DNA of 64,000 nt. Origin: Verrucomicrobiaceae bacterium. Lineage in GTDB: Bacteria; Verrucomicrobiota; Verrucomicrobiia; Verrucomicrobiales; Verrucomicrobiaceae. Where the stretch lies: assembly GCA_027489965.1 (NCBI GenBank), contig JAIXZA010000137.1, forward strand, positions 1-64,000. The letters run 5' to 3'. A program made the translations under genes and the position numbers. The notes below the pieces were generated by a model. The model worked only from the letters and a program-made list of their open reading frames with translations. It was not told the DNA's origin and searched no databases. Below are positions 9,879 to 11,217 of this stretch, one piece after another (the first letter of the stretch is position 1; each line of letters opens with the position of its first letter).

Positions 9879-10466
9879 CTACACACGCTGGATCGGTTCC
9901 TGTTCAGGAACAATCATCTCGCCGCGTTGCATTTTTGTCAGAATCAACCGACGCCGTTCTTGTTTTCTTGGAAGAACGCTGCCGTAGGCTGCGGCCATCG
10001 TGTTTGGATCCGGCGCACCTTCGTTACCCTGTGGAGCATACTGACCCATGCCATTGCGTGGGCGAGGGTCGGCAAGTTCAATCGACTCCAACTTTGAACA
10101 AAACTTCTTGAGTCGTTCTTTCGTGACGGGCTCAATCGATAGGATCTCGATGGATTTTGAGAACGTCTCTTTCCCATCTCGGTTCTTCGATGAGCTTTCT
10201 GACGCGACTCGATACTTCACCGTGGCTTCTCCGGTTTCTGGAAAATCAATGGGCTTGGGGCGCGAGATGTAGATCGAGGGGTAGTATTTGCTCGATGCAA
10301 CAGATCCAGCTATCGACGGACCACCATAACTCTCTCCGAGATCAAGTTTCTCAGAGAGGGCAATCAGCCGCGATTTATTGCGTAGCGTCAGCATTTTGAA
10401 TCCAAAGCAATCAAACCGGATTGCGACGGAATCCTTTTGCCATTGATGCAGCGGTCGATCGAGCAC
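9879..10466 (-). CDS. Putative virion (head) protein carrying tag motif
   Basis: 195 aa; N-terminus MLTLRNKSRLIALSEKLDLGES matches tags in neighbouring proteins; YPSIYISRPKPIDFPETGEATVKYRV domain. Confidence 0.6.
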   Translation of the reverse strand: MLDRPLHQWQKDSVAIRFDCFGFKMLTLRNKSRLIALSEKLDLGESYGGPSIAGSVASSKYYPSIYISRPKPIDFPETGEATVKYRVASESSSKNRDGKETFSKSIEILSIEPVTKERLKKFCSKLESIELADPRPRNGMGQYAPQGNEGAPDPNTMAAAYGSVLPRKQERRRLILTKMQRGEMIVPEQEPIQRV

Positions 10467-11217
10467 TTTTGATGTCGGATTCGTACACCGAGATCGCTTC
10501 TCGTTTTCCTGACTCAGGAATCAATTTCCGGGTAGGAGAAACCTTGAATTCTCCATGCATAGTCTTGTTGATTCGAACCGGAGCCATGCGAACCTTTAGC
10601 AACTCTGACGCAGTTCGCGATCCCGAGGAAAGTTCAATGGAGTCCACTTTTTCAGCGAGGAAGATGAGACGCTCGCTCGAATCAAACCGCATCGGCTTCC
10701 GCAGAAGTGCAGCGCCAGCCATTTTGAGAGATTTCCCAAATGAACCGACCCCGCCGACATTGCGGTATGCACCACCGGCTGCATTCATGCCGCCGACAGA
10801 GACGCGCTCCTGAACGCGAGAAGCGCGCTTGATTCGTTTCCCGACGTTTTCCAGACCGTCAGCAACAGCGCCAGATGCTTGCGCTGCGGTGTTTCTGGCT
10901 ACATTCCGGTAAGCCTGAGCAGCCGCTCCTTTTCCGAGGATCTGATCCCCGCCACCGGCCTTCATGATCGCACGGTGGCCGGCATAGCCTGCGCCAACGG
11001 CAGCGGTGGTGCCAACAGCGCCAGCAACGGTTTTGAAGTCACCAGCCCCAGCGGGTTTTCCGTCTTTGGTGTAAAACTTCCCGTCCTCACCGCGATAAAC
11101 GGCGAGTTCAATGGAGTCCACTTTCTCAGCGAGGGAGATCAGACGAATGTGCAGTTTGGTTTTCATGAAAATCGTGGTTCTTTGGATTCTGACTGTTCGA
11201 AGGATTCGGCGTGTCAA
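10411..11217 (-). CDS. Putative head-associated protein with two tag motifs (likely start at internal MKTKLHIRL)
   Basis: 268 aa; contains RLISLAEKVDSIELA and ERLIFLAEKVDSIELS plus Gly/Ala-rich segments. Confidence 0.65.
   Translation of the reverse strand: MTRRILRTVRIQRTTIFMKTKLHIRLISLAEKVDSIELAVYRGEDGKFYTKDGKPAGAGDFKTVAGAVGTTAAVGAGYAGHRAIMKAGGGDQILGKGAAAQAYRNVARNTAAQASGAVADGLENVGKRIKRASRVQERVSVGGMNAAGGAYRNVGGVGSFGKSLKMAGAALLRKPMRFDSSERLIFLAEKVDSIELSSGSRTASELLKVRMAPVRINKTMHGEFKVSPTRKLIPESGKREAISVYESDIKSARSTAASMAKGFRRNPV

Follow-up and report, generated by a model that had tools for sequence, protein, structure and literature searches.

Lineage-specific peptide tags delimit shuffled modules in late proteins of uncultured tailed phages and are candidate cleavage sites of a prohead protease

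The internal proteins of the T-even phages are diverse and have the CTS alone in common (PMC3012670), which in T4 forms a propeptide of 10-20 residues at the N-terminus (PMC5694885). Polyvalent proteins are multi-domain late proteins of phages and conjugative elements, encoded near the portal and predicted to be packaged and injected, that join several effectors in a single chain. An embedded metallopeptidase domain has been proposed for their release, and they have been likened to viral polyproteins; neither "linker" nor "repeated motif" appears in the main text of that study (PMC5512222). The propeptides of the SPN3US and phiKZ ejection proteins are cut at several sites by the prohead protease (gp245 in SPN3US) at the motif A-X-E (PMC10052503). 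Phage P1 is reported to have a capsid protein cut at E120|S121 and a very large head-packaged defence protein, DarB, whose packaging signal lies in the N-terminal 30 residues (PMC9024508).

Our window, the whole stretch of 64,000 nucleotides that was analysed, is part of a 69.4-kb contig in an assembly of 6.5 Mb; the best relatives of this assembly are Verrucomicrobiota, and the host assignment rests on such relatives. A tailed-phage late region occupies approximately positions 1-17000 (minus strand), with the gene order gpW-sized ORF, portal (Pfam Phage_portal_2, 3.9e-40), 1019-aa ORF, ORF5, ORF4, tRNA-Met (anticodon CAT; 9789-9865, minus strand, between ORF4 and the protease gene), protease-scaffold, small ORF and major head protein (PHROG 1005, 3.8e-35). 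The 1019-aa protein, ORF5 and ORF4 appear to hold unrelated cargo modules parted by short, lineage-specific tags. We consider it likely, with a probability of roughly 0.68, that the repeated peptide both joins and labels the units of a modular polyprotein, which is packaged in the head and which the prohead protease cuts at the tags. While the prohead assembles, the tags would draw the chains into the scaffolded shell, the gp21-like prohead protease of the phage would cleave at the tags, and the freed modules (e.g., InPase, LRAT, and DUF6321) would later be injected with the DNA; packaging, cleavage, cut position, and injection are what we infer here.

So understood, the system looks like the T4 CTS and the polyvalent proteins combined, the new element being repeated internal tags together with a protease acting in trans. 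As with the T4 CTS, diverse cargo presumed to be head-packaged shares only a short peptide (PMC3012670), and a protease of the same predicted fold lies beside the head genes. Unlike the T4 CTS, the tags are also internal, number about seven in one chain, and differ between phage lineages, and [LI]-x-E is not uniformly kept in them. The polyvalent proteins are resembled in that several distinct domains (including InPase in relatives) occur in one late-region chain near the portal, but no embedded peptidase was found in the 1019-aa protein of the window with Pfam or PHROGs, and processing would instead occur in trans at the repeated tags. Like SPN3US and phiKZ, the present phages would have ejection-type proteins with several prohead-protease sites, cutting being putative here, whereas SPN3US and phiKZ have mostly long N-terminal propeptides and not short inter-module tags. 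P1 DarB differs in having one signal, with no repeated internal tags described in the available part of the source (PMC9024508). In the literature searched, with subscription papers outside its reach, we found no paper describing such tags.

The tags were first noticed in ORF5 and ORF4, which from their gene position are probably head proteins:

10411..11217, minus strand: ORF5, tagged head-region protein, likely start ATG 11166
11101..11154, minus strand: N-terminal tag of ORF5, LHIRLISLAEKVDSIELA (motif discovery, DNA repeat comparison)
10627..10680, minus strand: second tag of ORF5, SSERLIFLAEKVDSIELS, a near-identical DNA repeat of the N-terminal one
9879..10466, minus strand: ORF4, tagged head-region protein, likely start ATG 10394
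10335..10379, minus strand: N-terminal tag of ORF4 with the start of the next module, NKSRLIALSEKLDLG, NKSRLIALSE|KLDLG (comparison with relatives)
10068..10100, minus strand: internal tag of ORF4, CSKLESIEL|AD, before the DPRPRNGMGQY module (motif discovery, relatives)

Because the likely true starts are ATG 11166 and ATG 10394, the first tag of each protein is N-terminal, and a short N-terminal peptide is common to the otherwise unrelated ORF5, ORF4, and their homologues. The peptides from which the sequence-only reading derived a tag shared by neighbouring late proteins (RLISLAEKVDSIELA, ERLIFLAEKVDSIELS, SRLIALSEKLDLG, and SKLESIELA) were all found where it had placed them. The shared tag is genuine, and its positions are conserved in relatives, at the N-terminus and in the C-terminal part of ORF5 and at the start and in the middle of ORF4; the sequence-only reading had named non-conserved positions as a refutation and withstands this check. 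The peptide that it quoted as SRLIALSEKLDLGES comprises the tag (SRLIALSE) and the start of the next module, since KLDLG follows other tags in relatives. The near-identical direct DNA repeats that it had reported 474 bp apart in ORF5 were recovered as 41-bp copies starting at 10631 and 11105 with 38 of 41 positions identical; a 20-mer of this repeat has no other copy in the 6.5-Mb assembly.

The neighbouring 1019-aa ORF is partitioned by seven further tag sites, which follow the pattern [F/L]-S-x..GR-[LIV]-I-x-[LF]-[E/D]. On inspection, most of them start [F/L]-S-like and end [I/V/L]-x-[F/L]-[E/D/G]:

11222..14281, minus strand: gene of the 1019-aa polyprotein, directly after the portal gene
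13886..13930, minus strand: tag 1, FQLAVKGRRIIKLER (aa 118-132), closing the N-terminal VDGHH module (module ends in relatives)
13559..13597, minus strand: tag 2, FSSRSKGMIRFER (aa 229-241)
13166..13201, minus strand: tag 3, LSASGRIISFEK (aa 361-372), upstream flank of the DUF6321 module (motif discovery, relatives)
12875..12910, minus strand: tag 4, ESKARVILFKEK (aa 458-469), downstream flank of the DUF6321 module (motif discovery, relatives)
12344..12382, minus strand: tag 5, FSIKERRTIRFDS (aa 634-646), from sequence inspection only and outside the 10 sites of the motif discovery below
12092..12127, minus strand: tag 6, FSMQGRLIQLGR (aa 719-730)
11585..11620, minus strand: tag 7, LSSKGKIIKLDQ (aa 888-899), with the fixed spacing [FL]-D-x6-GWDVRD in 18 phages

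The modules comprise VDGHH (aa 1-118), DUF6321 (aa 383-455), Gly/Ala-rich segments, and GWDVRD (aa 904-942). The VDGHH-homologous modules that five relatives carry at other positions stop without exception at aa 118-119, adjoining tag 1; the ParB-like likeness of this module was seen by eye only, and its predicted structure is of too low a quality for interpretation (pLDDT 51).

EM motif discovery in the 1019-aa protein, ORF5, ORF4, and the protease returned 10 sites with a leave-one-out score of 118, against a mean of 63 and a maximum of 80 for shuffled proteins (n = 6 shuffles). These sites are ASGRIISFEK, SKARVILFKE, SKGKIIKLDQ, LHIRLISLAE, SSERLIFLAE, NKSRLIALSE, SRPKPIDFPE, SKLESIELAD, ARIKSIELAE, and SASKPILFED; confidence is lower for SRPKPIDFPE, ARIKSIELAE, and SASKPILFED, some of which may have no function. 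The EM procedure, with masking, replaced a BLOSUM-window motif search that low-complexity runs had confounded. When the 85 ORFs of the window were scanned with a position-specific matrix made from ten hand-listed tags (leave-one-out for the tags themselves), the late block took most of the top matches, with some falling outside it.

The cleavage consensus of T4-type prohead proteases is (I/L)-x-E. The resemblance of LAE/LSE followed by K to this preference, put forward in the earlier reading, was not substantiated, the motif not being enriched in the tagged proteins of the window (9 observed vs. 8.6 ± 2.7 expected). The feature shared by 127 aligned tag cores (22 sets) is [LVIM]-x-x-[FL]-[small or acidic], in which the hydrophobic and F/L columns are conserved by construction since the alignment rule demands a hydrophobic residue and F/L/Y, while the Glu and the following A/S/D/E/G were not imposed by it. 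Glu immediately precedes the core F/L in 53% of the 127 cores, which is expected if many lineages cut after Glu, as in SPN3US and P1; a Glu-directed cut in many lineages is plausible on these alignments. The candidate scissile bonds E|F/L, F/L|A, or, in the window, E|K/R would all fit. A regular expression for the generic core is 2.7-fold enriched in tag-block proteins and 1.8-fold in the other ORFs of the same loci, and is too weak to be decisive.

The putative processing enzyme is encoded just beyond the tRNA:

8510..9763, minus strand: prohead protease fused to a coiled-coil scaffold, with a predicted T4 gp21/herpes protease (assemblin) fold
9743..9763, minus strand: N-terminal extension of the protease, MDVLLFQ, whose F6 is shared by at least 90% of 22 homologues
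8822..8854, minus strand: tag-like ARIKSIELAEK in the scaffold part (motif discovery)
8654..8677, minus strand: tag-like core SKPILFED near the scaffold C-terminus (motif discovery, relatives)

The head protease proposed for this gene from the letters of the window is T4 gp21-like by its predicted fold. Its domain comprises 168 aa, and H66 and S117 are invariant in 22 homologues. The AlphaFold2 model (pLDDT 80, pTM 0.76) had T4 gp21 (5jbl) as its top PDB match in Foldseek (E 4e-4, probability 1.0, TM 0.54-0.57), followed by a series of herpesvirus proteases and, in a viral library, by phage prohead proteases. It is the structure prediction that shows the protease fold: sequence profiles from Pfam, NCBIfam, and PDB did not identify the protease, and PHROGs gave only a weak head maturation protease match (phrog_976, 5 of 22 members). 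Residues 3-13 are predicted to be disordered, and F6 often has a hydrophobic residue three places before it (LKEF, LIQF, IIQF, VFSF, LIEF), which is the tag core. At the position of the scaffold SKPILFED, relatives have PLAFSAEG, TVEFSAG, and VRMFNA, and the tag-like core near the scaffold C-terminus of relatives is often F-[SNT]-A. The protease N-terminal and scaffold C-terminal cores are candidate self-processing sites. Met171 of the protease ORF (window position 9253), past the protease domain, recurs in the homologues examined (PAANP..G...M) and suggests, by analogy with lambda C/Nu3, a separate internal scaffold start; there is no clear Shine-Dalgarno sequence before it in the window.

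The homologous region is encoded by 48 IMG/VR loci and two Verrucomicrobiota genome records, the query being the 172-aa C-terminal segment of the 1019-aa protein aligned with its homologue in Verrucomicrobium sp. BvORR034. Single-sequence IMG/VR scans with the protease or portal of the window gave no match, nor did the polyprotein C-terminal segment and the protease among INPHARED phages. The matching ORF in relatives is between 541 and 1956 aa long (L098 alone lacks such an ORF) and lies just downstream of a portal-sized ORF in most intact loci; where the contig reaches, small ORFs, protease-scaffold, a small ORF, and the head protein commonly follow, as in the window. Each phage lineage has its own tag, repeated through the polyprotein and neighbouring ORFs:

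SAKLRxLREL/GLKEF: L057, L058, L061, L064, L067, L070, and others
F[EQSA]TPAxRLIxF: L085, L090, L095, L097, L101
LRPGMIEF: L102; similar in L063, L081, L087
(A/L)LTQF: L103, BvORR034
GKVTRFSD: L078, L092

In L063, L065, L074, and L101, unsupervised discovery gave other repeats or a motif no stronger than in shuffled proteins. The tag before GWDVRD (site A) matches the other late proteins of its own phage better than shuffled tags do (combined p 3e-7, 18 phages, an approximate value not corrected for the relatedness of the phages), with half or more of the 18 tests not significant singly. Identical tag peptides are written in different synonymous codons (KLRLREL in L064 and L067), and selection therefore acts on the peptide.

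Homologous modules vary in order between phages, some being in the polyprotein and some in separate ORFs. Residues 1-118 of the window's protein recur in the polyproteins of other phages, at 93-210, 146-263, 266-383, and 672-790. The DUF6321 segment recurs at many positions, and 18 segments that belong to a polyprotein in one phage have their counterpart in a separate ORF of a different phage. When diverged relatives are compared by BLAST, 22% of the segment ends lie no more than 8 aa from a tag core, against 7% (SAKL group) and 8% (TPA group) expected when tags are shifted along the protein, i.e., about three times expectation, with p = 0.001, the floor of the test, in each of the two lineages. 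With a permuted tag pattern there was no excess of boundaries (p 0.75); reversing the pattern left a slight excess (5% vs. 3%, p 0.016). The 'SILNKISNLTG' module starts right after KEF and stops at the next AKLRGLKEF. In five loci (L057, L058, L059, L064, and L067) a gene begins at the tag-predicted boundary, M(N)|D[SP]RPRN compared with SKLESIELA|DPRPRN. InPase modules occur in the polyproteins of L076 and L091 and are absent from the window; BvORR034 has an LRAT module, and L085 a DNA-ligase OB-like segment below threshold.

Moved modules carry the tag of the recipient. The tag before DPRPRN..GQY is SKLESIELA in the window, SSRLREL in L077, ERLREF in L096, VRPGMIEFV in L081, and SYDF in L097, and that before KLDLG is RLIALSE in the window, LLTSFE in BvORR034, LLTQFD in L080, and LHEFD in L102. 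In every one of 7 phages the two tags that flank DUF6321 resemble each other (permutation p 0.002, with hand-chosen 7-residue windows on the core), and in L103 QALTQF flanks the module on both sides. As the phages are related, the p values are approximate. Comparison of these proteins demonstrates, at the sequence level, tag-delimited modularity and tags that repeat through the block, bound modules, are lineage-specific yet uniform per phage, and are kept at the protein level. The tags' parting of shuffled modules with a lineage-specific sequence is the strongest part of the case and was absent from the sequence-only reading. In a phage collection (126 records), DUF6321 proteins are annotated as hypothetical in marine cyanophages, pelagiphages, and methylophilales phages, and may be injected proteins there too.

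The tags could alternatively be binding motifs only, docking the polyprotein, ORF5, and ORF4 on the scaffold or inner capsid wall without ever being cut. The ORF5 and ORF4 tags are amphipathic, the core that the scaffold shares with them could mediate self-interaction, and the packaging signals of T4 and P1 are short peptides (PMC9024508, PMC5694885). We nevertheless consider this unlikely, because one docking tag per chain would be enough, yet many are present, and because gene starts placed precisely at the downstream boundary (M|DSRPRN in L057 and others) and a disordered protease N-terminus with a conserved Phe better fit a cut. Ordinary structural repeats, serving as linkers (beta-hairpin or amphipathic) in a protein that is tail-tape-like or forms an ejection conduit, would suit the Gly/Ala-rich, membrane-like character of many modules and the strand-like alternation of tag residues noted on inspection. 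However, the same chains carry enzyme-like modules (InPase, LRAT), the tags bound the DUF6321 module and also occur in separate ORFs and the protease-scaffold, and lineage-specific agreement of non-homologous sites is unexpected for a passive linker, which makes this explanation quite improbable.

Least probable of all, with very little chance of being correct, is that the tags are DNA-level recombination sites shuffling late-gene modules, with the peptide as a by-product. Modules clearly do shuffle at tags, and ORF5 holds near-identical 41-bp DNA copies, but this identity fits a recent duplication, and a module that has moved bears tags like those of the recipient phage, which tag-only recombination does not predict. 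Copies of an identical tag peptide in a single phage differ in their synonymous codons, and the DNA-level explanation is largely refuted. Within the preferred reading of a tag-jointed, protease-cut polyprotein, we tentatively propose, at somewhat less than even odds, a cassette of exchangeable effector modules, in which the tag would be packaging signal and double cut site, an incoming module would have to gain the recipient's tag, and tag code and protease would co-evolve.

Phages of this kind may thus load and release a swappable protein payload via a tag-jointed head gene. The tags provide a sequence-readable rule by which the large, uncharacterised late proteins of this widespread and uncultured group of phages can be found and divided; dozens of cut sites are predicted, and each phage becomes a list of candidate injected effectors. 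They also suggest, in testable form, how multi-domain injected proteins that lack a protease of their own could be released, and would provide a basis for packing foreign proteins into phage heads.

Several minor observations concern the tagged proteins and their surroundings. In the window, an ORF at 33288-33950 (minus strand) has tag-like first residues, MRKGRLVEFAAKVDAA; it overlaps plus-strand ORFs and may be no gene. The tag-block proteins of L080 contain at least seven identical copies of VESNSLDCGY, then TPPP. FNHGGHGEHGG repeats lie immediately upstream of LKEF tags in the L057 and L061 polyproteins, and a repeat HRGHRGHRGHRG occurs in L058 and L062; these may be translated short DNA repeats. 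Further tagged ORFs with repeated RGD[FY]AIPAL modules occur between portal and polyprotein in L061 (3593-5830), L064 (4063-6597), and L067 (4587-5444), the one in L061 starting with a YHGTN motif that, by eye, recalls ADP-ribosyltransferases. BvORR034 (L034 8018-9736) carries, also by eye, YedK/HMCES-like and ATP-dependent DNA ligase-like genes between polyprotein and ORF5.
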